Assembly (NCBI GenBank): GCA_027449025.1
Contig: DAIDMK010000016.1
Coordinates: 1 to 60,925 of the forward strand
Source of the DNA: Lutibacter sp.
GTDB lineage: Bacteria > Bacteroidota > Bacteroidia > Flavobacteriales > Flavobacteriaceae
Direction of reading: 5' to 3'
Length of the DNA: 60,925 bases
The notes under the pieces are model-generated. The model was given only the letters and a program-made list of their open reading frames with translations. It did no database searches and was not told where the DNA came from. Below are positions 47,677-54,420 of the stretch, piece by piece; position 1 is the first letter of the stretch; every line of letters begins with the position of its first letter. The position numbers and the translations under genes were made by a program.

Positions 47677-49068
47677 TTAGGAAAAGTTGAGCTCGAAAGG
47701 TTTGGGGACATAATCTAACGGAACAATACTTGTGCTATTTTTACCTACATAACTATTTAAAATTCGGCGTACGTCATTATTTTCTTTTTGAGCGTTTAGC
47801 AAATCAAAATAATCTTCAACGGATGTAATCTTTTTTTTCTTGCTTGCATATCCAAATCCTTTATAAATACCATTAAGAACCAAAACATACGCATATTCAT
47901 TGGTGGTTCTGCCAGTTTCTTTTATGATAAAGTTTTCCGTATTAAATTTTAAGGAATCAATAGCCTTTTGTACCCTTAAATTATACAATTCTACAGGTTC
48001 TTCTTCTTTACAAACGCCTTTGCATTTCTTTATTTGGTAATGAAAACAGGTGGAGACATTGGTTTGTAAATGACAATATTTTGGACATAATTCAAATTCT
48101 TCACATAATTTTTCCATAAAAATTCGGCATTCCGTAACATTGGAAAATTTCATTAAAGGAGATGTAATTAATTTCAATCGGTTATAAGCCAAGTGCATGA
48201 TGCCATCTCGGTCTTCATAAGTAAACATTCCGATACTTTCCTGCACCCTTCTTTGTGCCCGGTTGTATTTGGGGTATATTTTTTTTATTTCCGAAGATTC
48301 CAATAGCAAGGCGAGCAATTCACTGCCGGTTTCAATATAAGAAACGTTGCTGGTTTCCAGGCACATGGTAATTTCTTTTTTGGTCTTGTCGTAAAAATGG
48401 CTCAGCACGCGTTGCTTTATATTTTTAGCTTTTCCAACATAAATAACTTCATTTTTTTCATTTTTAAAATAGTAAACCCCCGAATTTTCTGAAAGTTCAT
48501 CAACCGTTTTTTTCGGCAACAAAGGCGGCAAGGTGGATTGTTTTGAGCGCGGATTTAAAAAGGAATTGAATACCGTTTGATTGGTATCTAAAAACAACAG
48601 TTTTTCGAATAAAATCACAGTGGCTTCCGCGTCTCCTTTTGCTCGGTGCCTATCTTTAATTACAATATTTTGCGTAACGCAAAGTGCGCCCAAGCTGTAC
48701 GATCTTAAATTTGGAATTAAATTTCGTGATAACCGTACCGTGCACAGTTTTTTTCGTTTAAATTCAAATCCTAAATCTTTAAATTCTTTTTGTATGATGT
48801 TGTAATCAAAGTTTACGTTGTGCGCCACAAAGATGGTGTCCTTAGTAATTTCGGCTACTTTTTTGGCAATTTCATAAAATTTAGGGGCATTGCTCACCAT
48901 CGCATTGGTAATTCCCGTTAAATTGGTAATAAAAGGAGGGATGCTGCATTCCGGATTTACAAGTGACGTAAACTCATCAATTACTTTTTCTCCATCATAC
49001 ACAAAAATGGAAATTTCTGTTATTTTGGAGCTGTGTCCGGTGGTTTCTATATCAACTATTGTGTACAT
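47677..49068 (-). CDS. DEDDh exonuclease fused to a GIY-YIG nuclease domain (UvrC/Cho-like)
   Basis: 463 residues. The N-terminal 165 form a DnaQ-type 3'-5' exonuclease: DIETTG (Asp6, Glu8), HNVNFDYN (Asp88) and HRAKGDAEAT (His141, Asp146). From about 195 a GIY-YIG domain follows, as in UvrC and Cho (GVYYF, IYVGKAKNIKQRV, then LLLESSEIKKIYPKYN). The remainder contains a Cys-rich patch (CPKYCHLQ, CFHYQIKKCKGVC). The fusion suggests incision plus end trimming at DNA damage. It lies 2 nt behind the LexA-like repressor gene and is surely co-transcribed, which puts it under the same damage control. Confidence 0.9.
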   Translation of the reverse strand: MYTIVDIETTGHSSKITEISIFVYDGEKVIDEFTSLVNPECSIPPFITNLTGITNAMVSNAPKFYEIAKKVAEITKDTIFVAHNVNFDYNIIQKEFKDLGFEFKRKKLCTVRLSRNLIPNLRSYSLGALCVTQNIVIKDRHRAKGDAEATVILFEKLLFLDTNQTVFNSFLNPRSKQSTLPPLLPKKTVDELSENSGVYYFKNEKNEVIYVGKAKNIKQRVLSHFYDKTKKEITMCLETSNVSYIETGSELLALLLESSEIKKIYPKYNRAQRRVQESIGMFTYEDRDGIMHLAYNRLKLITSPLMKFSNVTECRIFMEKLCEEFELCPKYCHLQTNVSTCFHYQIKKCKGVCKEEEPVELYNLRVQKAIDSLKFNTENFIIKETGRTTNEYAYVLVLNGIYKGFGYASKKKKITSVEDYFDLLNAQKENNDVRRILNSYVGKNSTSIVPLDYVPKPFELNFS

Positions 49069-49070
49069 TT

Positions 49071-49844
49071 TTATTTGATCGATTTTTCCAGTGCCTTTAA
49101 TTCAATACCCAACTGATTTAACATAGAGGCAATGCTGCTTATTTTTAATTCGTGTTCCTCGTATTCCTGTGTATTGATGCTGCAGGTAAACTCCCACAAT
49201 TCCAGCACTTCATCAACAGGCACATAATAAGGGTCGTATTTTTTGTTGTCGGAAGCCAGCAAAAGCATATTGTTTTCTGCTATTTTATTAAAAACCCGCT
49301 TGTAAACAATGCCATCATTCAACGTGAGCACAATATACGTTTTACCGTCTTTTAAGTTGCTAATTTCTTCAACAAAACGTGCCACAATATAAGAACCGCT
49401 TTTCACCGGCAGCATAGAATCTCCTTTTATGGGAAATGCCCGGTGTGTTCCAGTTGGTAAAAATGGCAATTTAATTTTTTCTAAATGTTCAATATATTCC
49501 GGGTCGGCATAGCCTCTTAAATAACCTGCGGAAGCTTCAACCGGAATAATTTCTATCAAATCTTCGTTGGTGCCATCGACGGTAATGGGAAATAAAACCC
49601 TTCTGTTTCCAATTTCGATAAACGAAACATCTTTTGCACCCGACAAATCATTTTTGATTAAAATATCAATGGGAATCTTAAAATAATTGGATAAATCAAT
49701 TAAAAATTCAATAGGAGGAATGGCCCTGTTTTCTTCATAAGAGCTTATTCTTGAGCGAGAAACTTTTAAATCTTCCGCAAATTGTTCCTGCGTCAAACCT
49801 TTTAAAGTTCTCATGTGTTTGATGTTTTGTGATAAATAATTCAT
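49071..49844 (-). CDS. LexA-like repressor: XRE helix-turn-helix with S24 autoprotease domain
   Basis: 257 residues. The HTH at about 5-62 is of cro/C1 type (LKGLTQEQFAEDLKVSRSRISSYEENRA), unlike the winged helix of true LexA. The S24 domain has the scissile Ala106-Gly107 in EASAGYLRG, the nucleophile Ser143 in KGDSMLP and the general base Lys182 in VYKRV, so self-cleavage on DNA damage is expected. The last 35 residues are helical and charged. It is divergent from the polymerase genes, and two operators lie in the shared promoter, one only 3 nt from its own start. It probably represses both directions. Confidence 0.9.
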   Translation of the reverse strand: MNYLSQNIKHMRTLKGLTQEQFAEDLKVSRSRISSYEENRAIPPIEFLIDLSNYFKIPIDILIKNDLSGAKDVSFIEIGNRRVLFPITVDGTNEDLIEIIPVEASAGYLRGYADPEYIEHLEKIKLPFLPTGTHRAFPIKGDSMLPVKSGSYIVARFVEEISNLKDGKTYIVLTLNDGIVYKRVFNKIAENNMLLLASDNKKYDPYYVPVDEVLELWEFTCSINTQEYEEHELKISSIASMLNQLGIELKALEKSIK

Positions 49845-49846
49845 AA

Positions 49847-49893
49847 TGCTAAATTTATGAGCAACAATTGCTAATATTTTGAGCTAATTTAGC
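49847..49893. promoter_or_regulatory. Divergent operator region, GCTAA-N5-TGAGC boxes
   Basis: Site 1 (49848-49862) is GCTAA-ATTTA-TGAGC and site 2 (49870-49884) is GCTAA-TATTT-TGAGC: same half-sites, same spacing, 22 bp apart, which is about two helix turns. A third box, GCTAA-T-TTAGC (49883-49893), is a perfect short palindrome overlapping the end of site 2. A TATTTTG close to the -7 consensus lies inside site 2, and TAAATTTA inside site 1 on the other strand, so binding would block both promoters. Confidence 0.7.
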
Positions 49894-49928
49894 AAAAAAA
49901 AGAATACCGCCTAATCTTTTCAGAAGAA

Positions 49929-52898
49929 ATGTATTTGAACACGCACTCATATTATAGTTTAAAATATGGTACAATAGCGCTGGAAGCCTTGTTGCAGTTG
50001 GCATTTCAGTACAATATTACGGCGATGGCTTTGACCGATATTAACAACACTTCTGCCAACTTGGATTTTGTGCGTTTGGCTTCAAAATACCATATAAAAC
50101 CTGTTTTGGGGGTGGATTTCAGAAATGGTGCGCAACAACAATTTGTGATGCTAGCGAAAAATAATGAGGCGCTGCAGCAACTGAATAAATACCTGTCAGA
50201 ATTTTTGCATTCCAATAAAATAGAGATCCCCAAACGCGCAAAATACATTCCGGATACGTATGTAATTTATCCGTATCAAAATACGCTTATGGAACTTGAA
50301 GAAAATGAGTTTATGGGCGTAAAACCTTCTGATTTAAATCTGCTGAAGTTTTCAGAATGGCGATTTTACCAGGAGAAATTGGTGGTGTTGAAAACGGTTT
50401 CATTTCAGCATAAAAAAGGATTTAACACGCACAGATTACTGCGAGCCATTGACAACAATGTTTTGCTCAGTAAACTGCCAAAATCGGAGCAGGGAGAAGC
50501 ATCGGATATGATGATTTCTGAAAAGGCATTGAAAAATATGTTTGAGGAATACCCGCAAATTATTGAAAATACACAACGTATTTTAGACAATTGCCACATC
50601 GATTTTGATTTTTCCAAAAATGCGCCTAAAAATCAGAAAACTTATAGCAACAATTCAGCACTGGATTTTAAACTACTGAAAAAACTGGCTTATGACGGCT
50701 TAAACTATCGTTACAAAAAATTGGGAAAACGCGTGTTTGTCCGATTGGAAAAAGAGCTTGAAATGATTCAGCAAAAGCAATTTGTTTCCTATTTTTTAAT
50801 CAATTGGAAAATATTGAAATATGCCCGAAGCAAAAAATATTACTATGTTGGCAGGGGAAGTGGCGCCAACAGTCTTGTGGCGTATTTGCTGCGAATTACC
50901 GATGTTGATCCCATTGAACTGGATTTATATTTTGAACGTTTTATCAATTTATACAGAATAAATCCGCCCGATTTCGATCTGGATTTTTCCTGGCGCGACC
51001 GGGATGATGTGATGAATTTTATTTTTAATCGATTTAAAAACACCTCGTTGATTGCTGTTTACAACACGTTTAAATACAGGGCTTCGGTTCGGGAATTGGG
51101 GAAAGTTTTCGGACTTCCGAAAGAAGAAATAGACAAGCTTTCTATAGGAAATTTCAATCCAAATGAATTGGACGACTTATCGAAATTGGTGTTGGTTTAC
51201 AGCAAATACATTCAGGGATTTCCAAATTATTTGGGCATTCATCCTGGGGGAATTTTAATTTCAGAAAAGCCAATTGACTATTATACCGCTACGTATTTAC
51301 CTCCAAAAGGATTTTCAACCACCATGTTTGATATGGTTGTGGCAGAGGATATTGGCTTGTATAAATTTGATATTTTGAGTCAGCGCGGTTTGGGAAAAAT
51401 AAGGGAAGCCGTTGACATTGTAAAATACAACCATCCAAATCATCCTGATATAGACATTCACGATATCAAGCGTTTTAAGGAAGATTCAAAAATTAAATAC
51501 CTGTTGAAAAACGCCAAGGCCATTGCTTGTTTTTATGTGGAATCTCCCGCGATGCGGATGTTGCTAAAAAAATTGCAGGTGGATAATTATTTGGGATTGG
51601 TGGCGGCAAGTTCGGTTATACGACCTGGCGTGGCAAAATCGGGGATGATGCGGGAATATATTTTGCGCTACAGAAATCCGGAACGCAGAAAAGAAGCGAA
51701 TCCGATATTGCTTAAAATAATGCCGGAAACTTTCGGCGTGATGGTTTATCAGGAAGATGTTATAAAAGTGGCGCATCATTTTGGTGGATTAAGTTTGGGG
51801 GAAGCGGATATGTTACGGCGCGGAATGAGCGGCAAATTCAGATCAAGAGAGGAATTTTTAAAAGTGAAAAGCCAGTTTTTCGAAAATTGTAAAAATCAAG
51901 GACATAGCTATGAACTGACTTCAGAAATTTGGCGGCAAATTGAGAGTTTTGCCGGTTACGCTTTTGCCAAAGGGCATTCGGCTTCCTATGCCGTTGAAAG
52001 CTACCAAAGCCTATTTTTAAAAGCCTATTATCCGCTGGAATATTTGGTGGCAACGCTTAACAATTTCGGCGGATTTTACCAGCCGGAATATTATGTGCAC
52101 GAAGCGCGGATGAACGGTGGAATTATTCATCCGCCAACCATTAACAAGTCTTATTATCAGAATCATATAGAAGGGAATGCCATTTATTTGGGTTTTATGA
52201 TGCTGGAAAGTTTTGAAATAAAAAATGCGACAAAAATTGTAAATGAGCGAAATAAAAACGGTTTGTTTTTAGATTTGGACGATTTTATTGAACGCGTTGC
52301 CATTTCGTTGGAACAGCTTTCAATTTTAATTAAAATAAATGCCTTTCGGTTTACGGGGAGAAATAAACGGGAATTGTTATGGGAAGCTTATATGAAAGTG
52401 AATAAAGTATGTTTGGAAACCCATGTTTCCACACTTTTTAAATCGGAGAAAATTGTGTACAACACGCCACAACTCAGTTGCAGCCAATTTGAAGATGCCT
52501 TTGACGAAATCCAATACCTGGGTTTCCCCTTGTGCAGTCCGTTTGATTTATTGATACAACCAATTCATCAACAATTGCTTGCAAATGATTTGGTACATTA
52601 TATTGGAAAAATGGTAAGGGTTTACGGATATTATGTGACGACAAAAAGAGTAAGCACTTCCAAAGGCGATTTCATGTATTTCGGAAATTTTGTGGATGTA
52701 AAAGGAGCTCATCTTGATACCGTACATTTTCCGCCAGCTGCTAAAAAATATCCCTTTAAAGGAAGAGGCGTGTATGAATTAACGGGGAAAGTTGTGGAAG
52801 AATTTGATTGCATCACGGTTGAAATAGAAAAAATGGAAAAATTGGCAATTATCCAGGATCCGAGGTATGCTGATATCCCTAAAAAAGTAATGGTATGA
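49929..52898 (+). CDS. DnaE-type DNA polymerase III alpha subunit, short (DnaE2-like, error-prone)
   Basis: 989 residues, shorter than replicative DnaE. The N-terminal PHP domain is degenerate (THSYYSLKYGT, and ALTDINN where metal-binding forms have TDH). The C-family polymerase core is intact: YVGRGSGANSLVAYL, then PPDFDLDF with catalytic Asp350 and Asp352, and YKFDILSQRGLGKI with the third Asp. The C-terminus has the helix-hairpin-helix and an OB fold (GKMVRVYGYYVTTKRV). Its place behind the S24 repressor and its ATGA overlap with DNA polymerase IV suggest a damage-tolerance enzyme rather than the replicase. No imuA gene is present. Confidence 0.9.
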   Translation: MYLNTHSYYSLKYGTIALEALLQLAFQYNITAMALTDINNTSANLDFVRLASKYHIKPVLGVDFRNGAQQQFVMLAKNNEALQQLNKYLSEFLHSNKIEIPKRAKYIPDTYVIYPYQNTLMELEENEFMGVKPSDLNLLKFSEWRFYQEKLVVLKTVSFQHKKGFNTHRLLRAIDNNVLLSKLPKSEQGEASDMMISEKALKNMFEEYPQIIENTQRILDNCHIDFDFSKNAPKNQKTYSNNSALDFKLLKKLAYDGLNYRYKKLGKRVFVRLEKELEMIQQKQFVSYFLINWKILKYARSKKYYYVGRGSGANSLVAYLLRITDVDPIELDLYFERFINLYRINPPDFDLDFSWRDRDDVMNFIFNRFKNTSLIAVYNTFKYRASVRELGKVFGLPKEEIDKLSIGNFNPNELDDLSKLVLVYSKYIQGFPNYLGIHPGGILISEKPIDYYTATYLPPKGFSTTMFDMVVAEDIGLYKFDILSQRGLGKIREAVDIVKYNHPNHPDIDIHDIKRFKEDSKIKYLLKNAKAIACFYVESPAMRMLLKKLQVDNYLGLVAASSVIRPGVAKSGMMREYILRYRNPERRKEANPILLKIMPETFGVMVYQEDVIKVAHHFGGLSLGEADMLRRGMSGKFRSREEFLKVKSQFFENCKNQGHSYELTSEIWRQIESFAGYAFAKGHSASYAVESYQSLFLKAYYPLEYLVATLNNFGGFYQPEYYVHEARMNGGIIHPPTINKSYYQNHIEGNAIYLGFMMLESFEIKNATKIVNERNKNGLFLDLDDFIERVAISLEQLSILIKINAFRFTGRNKRELLWEAYMKVNKVCLETHVSTLFKSEKIVYNTPQLSCSQFEDAFDEIQYLGFPLCSPFDLLIQPIHQQLLANDLVHYIGKMVRVYGYYVTTKRVSTSKGDFMYFGNFVDVKGAHLDTVHFPPAAKKYPFKGRGVYELTGKVVEEFDCITVEIEKMEKLAIIQDPRYADIPKKVMV

Positions 52899-54079
52899 GC
52901 ACGCTGGAACGTTCTATTGTACATATGGATTTGGATACTTTTTTTGTGTCCTGCGAACGATTGATGGACAGCCAACTGGAAGGAAAACCCATTTTAATTG
53001 GCGGAACTTCCGATAGGGGCGTGGTGGCTTCCTGCAGTTATGAAGCCCGGAAATTTGGCGTTCATTCGGCCATGCCTATGCGCATGGCAAAACAATTATG
53101 TCCGGAAGCCATTGTATTGCGTGGAAATTCGGGAATTTATACCAAATTTTCAAAACAAGTAACCGATGTTGTCAATGAATCCGTTCCTTTATATGAAAAG
53201 TCGTCGATAGATGAATTTTATATCGATTTAACGGGAACGGACAAGTTTTTTGGCTGCCATCAATTGGCTTCGGAATTGCGCAAAAAAATAATGAAAGAAA
53301 CCGGATTGCCCATTTCTTTTGGCTTGTCTGTTAACAAAACCGTCTCAAAAATCGCCACAGGGGAAGCAAAACCCAACAATGAAATGAAAATAAACAGCGG
53401 CACCGAAAAGTTTTTCCTGGCGCCGTTATCTGTCCGTAAAATCCCTATGGTGGGCGAAAAAACCTATAATATATTGTGCGACTTGGGCATTAAACGCATA
53501 AAAACCGTTCAGGAAATGCCGATTGACATGATGACCAAAGTTTTTGGAAAACAGGGCAGCGGCATTTGGAAAAAGGCAAATGGTATTGATAATTCTCCAG
53601 TTGTAAAATACCACGAGCGAAAATCTATTTCAACAGAAAACACCTTTGAGAAAGACACCACGGATCTTGAAAAACTAAAAAGCAATATTGTTGCCATGAC
53701 AGAAAGTTTGATTTTTCAATTGCGCAGAAGCAATAAATTAACTGCGTGCATTACTTTTAAAATCCGCTATTCCGATTTTCAAACCTATACAAAACAAAAA
53801 AAAATAGCGTATAGTTCTGCAGACCATGCCATTTTGCCGGTTGTTATGGAACTCTATAAGAGCTTGTACCAAAGGCGGTTATTGGTTAGGTTAATAGGTA
53901 TAAAGTTTAGTGATTTGGTAGGTGGCGGACAGCAAATTAATTTGTTTGAAGACAATGCCAAAATGATAAATTTATATCACGCCATGGATAAAATGCGGGA
54001 ACGTTATGGGGATAAGGCAGTTGTGAGGGCAGTTACAATGCCTCCTAAGCCCCCTAACCCCCAAAGGGGGAACCCCTGA
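52895..54079 (+). CDS. dinB: DNA polymerase IV (Y family)
   Basis: Translesion polymerase of 394 residues. The catalytic acids are Asp12 in VHMDLDTFF and Asp106-Glu107 in SSIDEFYIDLTG, so it is not an inactive ImuB-type chain. The steric-gate region, thumb (VGEKTYNILCDLGI) and little finger follow. QINLF at about 347-351 is a plausible beta-clamp binding motif near the C-terminus. The last dozen residues ([12 protein letters not shown]) are encoded by a CCCC-rich repeat and are probably an accidental tail. The start overlaps the stop of the upstream polymerase (ATGA), so expression is coupled. Confidence 0.93.
   Translation: MSTLERSIVHMDLDTFFVSCERLMDSQLEGKPILIGGTSDRGVVASCSYEARKFGVHSAMPMRMAKQLCPEAIVLRGNSGIYTKFSKQVTDVVNESVPLYEKSSIDEFYIDLTGTDKFFGCHQLASELRKKIMKETGLPISFGLSVNKTVSKIATGEAKPNNEMKINSGTEKFFLAPLSVRKIPMVGEKTYNILCDLGIKRIKTVQEMPIDMMTKVFGKQGSGIWKKANGIDNSPVVKYHERKSISTENTFEKDTTDLEKLKSNIVAMTESLIFQLRRSNKLTACITFKIRYSDFQTYTKQKKIAYSSADHAILPVVMELYKSLYQRRLLVRLIGIKFSDLVGGGQQINLFEDNAKMINLYHAMDKMRERYGDKAVVRAVTMPPKPPNPQRGNP
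54048..54072 (+). repeat. CCCC-rich hairpin repeat, copy 6 (inside the dinB 3' end)
   Basis: AGCCCCCTAACCCCCAAAGG followed by GGGAA. It is read in a frame without a stop, so dinB continues through it. Confidence 0.8.
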
Positions 54080-54420
54080 TGTCGCGGATTTGTAATCCGT
54101 GCGTAAGTAAATATTAATTTTTGACCAAAATCGAAAAAGTTCCTAATCAAAAATCGTACATCGTAAATCAAAAATCGTACACCTGATGTCGCGGATTTGT
54201 AATCCGTGCCCTGATGTCGCGGATTTGTAATCCGTGCCCTGATGTCGCGGATTTGTAATCCGTGCGTAAGGTAAATATTAATTTTTGACCAAAATCGAAA
54301 AAGTTCCTAATTAAAAATCGTACATCGTAAATCAAAAATCGTACATCGTAAATCAAAAATCGTACATCGTACATCGTAAATCAAAAATCGTACATCGTAA
54401 ATCAAAATTGTAATTCGATT
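54076..54420 (+). repeat. Tandem array of a 28-bp hairpin unit inside a larger duplication
   Basis: Four units beginning CTGATGTCGCGGATTTGTAA start at 54076, 54183, 54211 and 54239. The last three are spaced exactly 28 bp. Each contains the hairpin CGGATT-TGT-AATCCG. Units 1 and 4 are each followed by the same sequence of about 80 nt (TAAATATTAATTTTTGACC...) and a heptanucleotide array, so the whole block is duplicated with a 163-bp period. Confidence 0.85.
54149..54412 (+). repeat. Heptanucleotide arrays, AATCGTA-CATCGTA-AATCAAA
   Basis: Two arrays (54149-54180 and about 54315-54412) of the units AATCGTA, CATCGTA and AATCAAA. This is the longest heptanucleotide tract in the window. Confidence 0.8.

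Follow-up and report, generated by a model that had tools for sequence, protein, structure and literature searches.

A putative one-locus SOS module with a non-canonical LexA-type repressor in Lutibacter

Positions 47677 to 54079 of a 60,925-nt stretch of Lutibacter sp. DNA (contig DAIDMK010000016.1 of assembly GCA_027449025.1; the whole stretch is hereafter the window) carry genes for a repressor, a nuclease and two DNA polymerases, which quite probably make up a compact SOS locus, a one-locus form of the Bacteroidetes scheme built on a non-canonical LexA. The basis for this in the present analysis is gene layout, residues, motifs, operator architecture and co-occurrence. In relatives, repressors of this type have been reported to bind their operators, and mitomycin C to induce their targets (Sanchez-Osuna et al., 2021, PMC8565304, here and below for its main-text parts), and by analogy the same may be expected here. 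As binding and damage induction are already published for the family, the general picture is unchanged: parts of the design are described in relatives, and the locus is a clear example rather than a new system. What this analysis adds are paired operators 22 bp apart, a regulon that looks local, a gene order that is not fixed, and split loci with a short copy of the repressor. Literature titles and abstract openings yielded no report on this locus in Lutibacter, and neither the 22-bp tandem nor the short copy was found described in the main-text parts of the related literature, supplements aside.

Repressor, operators and promoter region

The four genes form two divergent pairs. On the reverse strand are the HTH_3 + Peptidase_S24 repressor gene (49071-49844; 257 amino acids, aa) and, beginning 2 nt past its stop codon, the Exo/GIY-YIG nuclease gene (47677-49068; 463 aa); on the forward strand are a short DnaE gene (49929-52898; 989 aa) and, overlapping its end by ATGA, a Y-family polymerase (PolY) gene (52895-54079; 394 aa). 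The divergent region between repressor and dnaE is 84 nt long. All four open reading frames (ORFs), identified from an ORF listing and domain searches, are intact and have the coordinates given in a first-pass annotation of the window, whose description of two tight gene pairs around one promoter region holds.

The repressor matches the helix-turn-helix (HTH) domain HTH_3 and Peptidase_S24 above Pfam cut-offs. The winged-helix domain PF01726 is not among its matches, which places it outside canonical LexA and agrees with the first-pass view that an XRE-type HTH has replaced the LexA winged helix. Ala106-Gly107, Ser143 and Lys182, singled out there for self-cleavage, are all present; in an alignment of 92 sequences (window included; a further alignment has 41 rows), Ser and Lys are found in 92/92, Gly in 90/92 and Ala in 86/92. 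A phmmer search of PDB matched the repressor through its HTH only, and the S24 fold was therefore checked with AlphaFold and Foldseek, the latter returning lambda CI, the 186 repressor and LexA. The model has a mean predicted local distance difference test score (pLDDT) of 71, but less than 50 at residues 93-109, which span the cleavage site, so that no claim is made on cleavage geometry. To judge from its residues, the repressor is probably self-cleaving at Ala106-Gly107, and its predicted architecture (a CI-like HTH plus S24) is that of the published non-canonical LexA type of Bacteroidetes.

The promoter region contains two predicted operators, absent from the first-pass annotation. Operator 1, GCTAAATTTATGAGC (49848-49862, forward strand), is separated by 3 nt from the start codon of the repressor gene, and was both read in the sequence and recovered by pattern scans; operator 2, GCTAATATTTTGAGC (49870-49884, forward strand), also recovered by the scans, starts 22 bp past the start of operator 1. 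Each is 15 bp long and a perfect match to GCTAA-N5-TGAGC. A palindrome read directly from the sequence, GCTAATTTAGC (49883-49893), overlaps operator 2 on the polymerase side and is a possible extra half-site. Within the window, the tandem pattern with at most 3 mismatches has 1 match against 0.13 expected, and it is the perfect pair alone that stands out.

Similar sites are found in relatives. Of 80 named loci with the best repressor matches, two have too short an upstream sequence; among the remaining 78 repressor promoters, 68 contain one operator-like site or more, 36 of them two, in 36/36 cases spaced by exactly 22 bp. In dinucleotide shuffles of the 78 promoters (200 rounds), one site turned up in a mean of 1.2 promoters and two in 0. 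This figure overstates independence, since the pattern came out of the very promoters tested, many of them closely related. More telling is that the 22 bp stays constant across the variants GCTAA..TGAGC, GCTAC..TAAGC and ACTAC..TAAGC.

The sequence TAnnTTTG, which we take to be a Bacteroidota-type -7 promoter element, ends 7 nt ahead of the repressor ATG in 34 of the 78 promoters, within operator 1, and 4 nt ahead of the polymerase ATG in 22 of 28 loci where dinB (the PolY gene) comes first, immediately beside operator 2. A bound repressor should therefore block transcription in both directions.

These features can be set beside the published non-canonical LexA repressors (COG2932; PMC8565304), by description of those proteins in the main text. 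Shared with them are the HTH_3 and S24 domains, the Ala-Gly, Ser and Lys residues, operators in the repressor's own promoter, divergent error-prone polymerase genes, an N5-spaced dyad of the CTAA-N5-TTAG group, and a GIY-YIG exonuclease, which the predicted regulon there includes along with dinB-dnaE operons; in Elizabethkingia, the repressor and its divergent polymerase gene are both induced by mitomycin C. The Lutibacter dyad is a variant of the published motif, having CTAA-N5-TGAG twice, one base off CTAA-N5-TTAG, with the N5 spacer kept. The locus differs in its GCTAA-N5-TGAGC form, in the fixed 22-bp tandem, and in seemingly being the only one regulated. The first-pass annotation had proposed an independent SOS-like mutasome: the damage-response anatomy is supported, but that it is a new or independent kind of system is not, its parts being published in Bacteroidetes.

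Gene order, co-occurrence and split loci

Conservation of gene order had been offered as a test in the first-pass annotation, and was examined in the same 80 loci, a set biased to close kin; dropping 12 limited by contig edges left 68 informative loci. The window order, nuclease-repressor-dnaE-dinB, is found in 17, and all four genes with dinB ahead of dnaE in 10 more. Another 17 have repressor-dinB-dnaE without the nuclease directly behind (in L119, L135 and L149 one is further off); 22, six of them from the split-locus species described below, keep nuclease and repressor but have no polymerase genes there; one has a dnaE remnant and one the repressor alone. The four genes thus occur together in 27/68 loci, but a fixed four-gene order, with only 17/68 in that of the window, is rejected.

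In a tree of 42 DnaE proteins, those from dnaE-first loci form one clade (100/100). When the tree is rooted on the non-Bacteroidota rows, on long outgroup branches, this clade falls among the dinB-first loci, with a fork joining it to 12 of the 18 dinB-first ones also at 100/100. The dnaE-dinB order of the window is thus most simply a derived swap, as far as this tree goes.

Among 37 genomes of the genus, some of them only 62-89% complete, 23 have both dnaE2 and the repressor, nine the repressor only (one with a dnaE remnant), five neither, and none dnaE2 alone, a weak HTH-only repressor match in G011 (E 4e-4) being scored as absence (Fisher p 0.0046 for co-occurrence, ignoring kinship). The nuclease gene adjoins that of the repressor in 32/32 genomes, though truncated or broken in G017, G021 and G023, and its ortholog is missing from the five repressor-less ones. 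With the nuclease always beside the repressor and the polymerases patchy, nuclease and repressor appear as the stable core of the locus, with polymerases that come and go.

The patchy polymerase pair could also point to a mobile or phage-derived module, in which the repressor would chiefly control a portable mutagenesis cassette and any host SOS function would be incidental. Repressor homologs (44% and 40% identity) with divergent dinB-dnaE do occur on the Emticicia plasmid pEMTOL01 (L204, where the locus also adjoins a SOS-associated peptidase, SRAP, gene) and on a Chryseobacterium plasmid (L211), typed in PLSDB as conjugative and mobilizable respectively, and the closest phage match to the repressor is an Elizabethkingia phage protein, at 31%. 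However, the best 80 loci all have repressor orthologs (67-98% identical) and by title belong to Flavobacteriaceae genera or to unplaced Flavobacteriia/Bacteroidetes metagenome-assembled genomes (MAGs), most of them have operators, and the ORFs listed between 44.5 and 57.5 kb in the window include none recognised as an integrase; a mobile cassette seems unlikely.

In 7 of the 23 dnaE2-bearing genus genomes the polymerase pair lies apart from the full repressor. Six of these split loci (L175-L180; G030, G032, G020, G010, G024, G022) have it behind a divergently oriented repressor paralog that consists of the HTH alone and is exactly 72 aa long in 5/5 complete copies (that of L177 is cut by a contig end); the seventh (G026, L181) retains no more than a short remnant of the HTH. 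In four of the five complete loci (L176, L178, L179, L180) a SRAP gene lies 3′ of the paralog. Other SRAP genes were noticed at G025:C88:25925-26485, G016:C106:16806-17366 and G017:C23:19087-19569; in all, several relatives have one after either the nuclease or the mini-repressor, intact except for a stop in those of G016 and G017. The window genome yielded none.

The mini-repressor/dnaE promoters keep their operators, some perfect and others with at most 2 mismatches. In G022, G024, G030 and G032, the tandem operator is found at exactly two places, the repressor-nuclease and the mini-repressor/dnaE promoters, in a scan of 60 genomes whose listed matches do not extend to G010, G020 and others, and for which only matches with at most 2 mismatches were used (with 3, the control count was as high as the forward count in many genomes, and 58/60 had some match). 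Pairwise ratios of nonsynonymous to synonymous substitution (dN/dS) among the mini-repressors are 0.12-0.33 in 9 of 10 pairs (dS was saturated in the other, and L177 was left out), and about 0.04-0.20 for the same part of the full repressors; by this measure selection appears to maintain the mini-repressors, though under somewhat weaker constraint than the full ones.

As the DnaE tree does not group the split loci together, there may have been one ancient split followed by losses, or repeated splitting. In some MAGs, mixed strains may lie behind the split picture. In the assemblies G002, G023 and G029, contigs break within the repressor gene, perhaps through mixing of strains with and without the split.

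One possibility, which we put forward tentatively, is that part of Lutibacter has a two-repressor switch, with the 72-aa protein acting like Cro to limit polymerase dose or to re-silence the genes after damage. It might compete for the same operators, the full, cleavable repressor staying with the nuclease; having no S24 domain, it could not be removed by RecA. These sister-species loci are a lead worth following, as a natural experiment on which promoter parts are needed and on a repressor copy without S24.

Polymerases, nuclease and a proposed mechanism

The short DnaE matches DNA polymerase III alpha models, with DNA_pol3_alpha, finger, HHH_6 and PHP domains above Pfam cut-offs, and PolY has IMS and IMS_C. 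The first-pass annotation had described both chains as having intact catalytic acids, and these prove invariant: D348, D350, D352 and D481 in 48 aligned DnaE sequences, and D12, D106 and E107 in 47 aligned PolY sequences (window included in each). The PHP metal site of DnaE looks degenerate: intact PHP domains carry His at the position of I38, which is Ile in 46/48 of the aligned sequences; E. coli DnaE has Phe there.

PolY ends in two motifs. QINLF (53933-53947, forward strand; residues 347-351) presumably has a clamp-binding role, recognised here from the motif. C-terminal to it is a stretch resembling the RecA N-terminus (RecA-NT; 53957-54028, forward strand; residues 355-378), with a local score of 36 against that of the genome's own RecA; shuffles scored 17.3 ± 3.4 (largest 37), 2 in 5000 as high. 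Other RecA windows score up to 30 against PolY, but those listed overlap the same motif and so are no independent control; the tails of 60 other PolY proteins score from 20 to a median of 30.5 against the RecA N-terminus.

In the DnaE tree, a 34-row Bacteroidota clade stands apart from E. coli DnaE1, the genome's own DnaE1, a Bacillota DnaE3 and two DnaE2A rows. The branches are long, and the label DnaE2B-like therefore rests on gene association rather than on the tree. For Bacteroidetes, main-text descriptions exist of a module of DnaE2 and active PolY (with or without RecA) lacking ImuA, and a DnaE2-PolY-RecA-NT arrangement has been predicted (PMC6511836, PMC12926913). The Lutibacter pair resembles this DnaE2B-PolY-RecA mutasome (PMC12926913; the Cellulophaga algicola system, PMC6511836) in having a DnaE2-like protein beside an active PolY with a RecA-NT motif and neither ImuA nor ImuB, and differs in its dnaE-dinB order and in the attached repressor and nuclease. 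With the ImuA-ImuB-DnaE2 cassettes (Ensifer and Agrobacterium plasmid examples) it shares a DnaE-type polymerase and a Y-family protein in one operon; unlike them, it has a catalytically complete Y-family member, a DnaE on a separate long branch, and, as the first-pass annotation also had it, no ImuA in the gene layout of the locus (no search for ImuA was made elsewhere in the genome).

The nuclease, with RNase_T and GIY-YIG domains above Pfam cut-offs, is by domains and residues a predicted DEDDh 3′-5′ exonuclease fused to a UvrC/Cho-type GIY-YIG nuclease. In 57 sequences, the DEDDh residues D6, E8, D88, H141 and D146 are invariant, save one unread residue at E8, as are the GIY-YIG residues Y199, Y210, R220, E257 and N269. 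Foldseek matched the DEDDh part to the DinG and PolC exonuclease domains, and the middle to the UvrC GIY-YIG domain 1yd6. Against NCBIfam models it scores 89.6 bits for Cho over residues 186-380, far from the cut-off of 367 for membership, and 81.1 bits for UvrC over residues 187-377, also under the cut-off. It is thus like Cho and the N-terminal half of UvrC in its GIY-YIG region and the stretch behind it, and unlike both in its fused DEDDh exonuclease and its scores. Six Cys residues between C322 and C353 are invariant (24 aligned rows); the stretch resembles what we take to be the UvrC iron-sulphur region, and may bind a metal or an iron-sulphur cluster. Elsewhere, and also in the five module-less genus genomes, there is a second paralog of the Exo/GIY-YIG type with 43-49% identity over about 270 residues; one example, at G000:C24:2902-3714, is 49% identical over residues 1-271.

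The locus may work as follows. In undamaged cells, repressor dimers would sit on the two operators, whose 22-bp spacing amounts to about two turns of the helix, and keep both sides silent. Self-cleavage at Ala106-Gly107 by the Ser143/Lys182 dyad would be triggered by RecA filaments on single-stranded DNA, the HTH half would drop off, and both transcripts, including the repressor's own, would rise. The two polymerases, tethered to RecA by the RecA-NT-like motif of PolY and also to the clamp, would synthesise past lesions and fill gaps, which the Exo/GIY-YIG protein would make or clean by nicking in the manner of Cho/UvrC and trimming 3′ ends. RecA-stimulated cleavage and a polymerase-RecA complex are expected here from residues and motifs; the incision role, suggested by likeness to Cho and UvrC, is the least certain step of the mechanism. 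In Caulobacter, DnaE2 is reported to fill gaps made by nucleotide excision repair (PMC8102061), so that co-regulating an incision nuclease with DnaE and PolY would be sensible.

Alternatively, the Exo/GIY-YIG enzyme might be no incision nuclease but a proofreader for the PHP-degenerate DnaE. The apparent loss of the PHP metal site would suit this, as would the DnaQ/PolC-like exonuclease domain and the placing of both genes behind the same operators. But the nuclease is kept at 22/68 informative loci with no polymerases at the site, and in nine genus genomes with no dnaE2 or only a remnant; the epsilon-binding surface is reported not to be conserved in DnaE2 (PMC3919608, main-text part), and the GIY-YIG half would be left unexplained. 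Proofreading is accordingly a quite improbable role, and we keep to incision and trimming as the working proposal.

Reach of the regulon

The genome assembly (3.34 Mb in 136 contigs, rated 100% complete) contains one Peptidase_S24 protein, one IMS-domain protein and one RecA. Neither a second S24 protein (LexA, UmuD) nor a second Y-family protein (ImuB, UmuC) was found in it, though a gap among the 136 contigs could hide one. The strict operator occurs 7 times, against 3 for a reversed control: two occurrences are the module pair, four are in ORFs, and one lies between genes, next to a doubtful ORF. For the tandem operator with at most 3 mismatches there are 8 places against 2 in the control; the module has 0 mismatches, the next match 2 (in an ORF) and the rest 3, with context inspected for three of the seven outside the module. 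By these scans the regulon looks like this locus alone, although single weak sites would escape them.

Several observations weigh against reading the locus as a compact SOS unit. No operator was found upstream of recA in the genome scans, and they gave no sign of a global regulon recognisable through exact operator matches; given both, the locus may fall short of a full SOS response. Scanned with one mismatch allowed, the single-site pattern matches the window 2 times (both perfectly) against 4.4 expected, and the -7 box is imperfect at both starts. Ten of the 78 promoters have no site (L100, which is Lutibacter, L107-L110, L112, L133, L137, L154 and L156), and 9 of 16 dnaE-first loci (a further one was not counted, as it had no start codon within reach) lack TAnnTTTG within 60 nt of the polymerase start, making the polymerase-side promoter less clear there. 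The cleavage-site Ala is replaced in 6/92 aligned repressors and the Gly in 2/92, and beyond the genus 18/68 informative loci lack a nuclease gene immediately behind the repressor gene.

It is conceivable that the repressor is instead a genome-wide SOS master regulator, with the locus one of many targets that have weak or single sites. Relatives have large regulons, as the main text of PMC8565304 describes; no S24 protein besides the repressor was found in the genome, and single imperfect sites slip past strict patterns. A looser pattern, GCTWM-N5-KWAGC, does find 32 sites against 18 in the reversed control, but 29 of the 32 are inside ORFs and none of the other three is ahead of a gene recognised as a repair gene; recA has no site, and the module is the only perfect one of the eight tandem places. 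A master regulator is therefore fairly unlikely.

As a compact one-locus system, the module would be a clean, minimal version of a Bacteroidetes SOS response, in which a single repressor, probably cleavable, would act through a single pair of operators on a nuclease and a pair of polymerases. Since searches of the genome turned up neither a further S24 protein nor a further Y-family one, how the repressor ties in with mutagenesis and with the nuclease should be testable with little background.

Tandem repeats lie 3′ of the PolY gene, at 54182-54265 and 54309-54407 of the window, comprising three perfect copies of a 28-bp unit and an array rich in ATCGTA.

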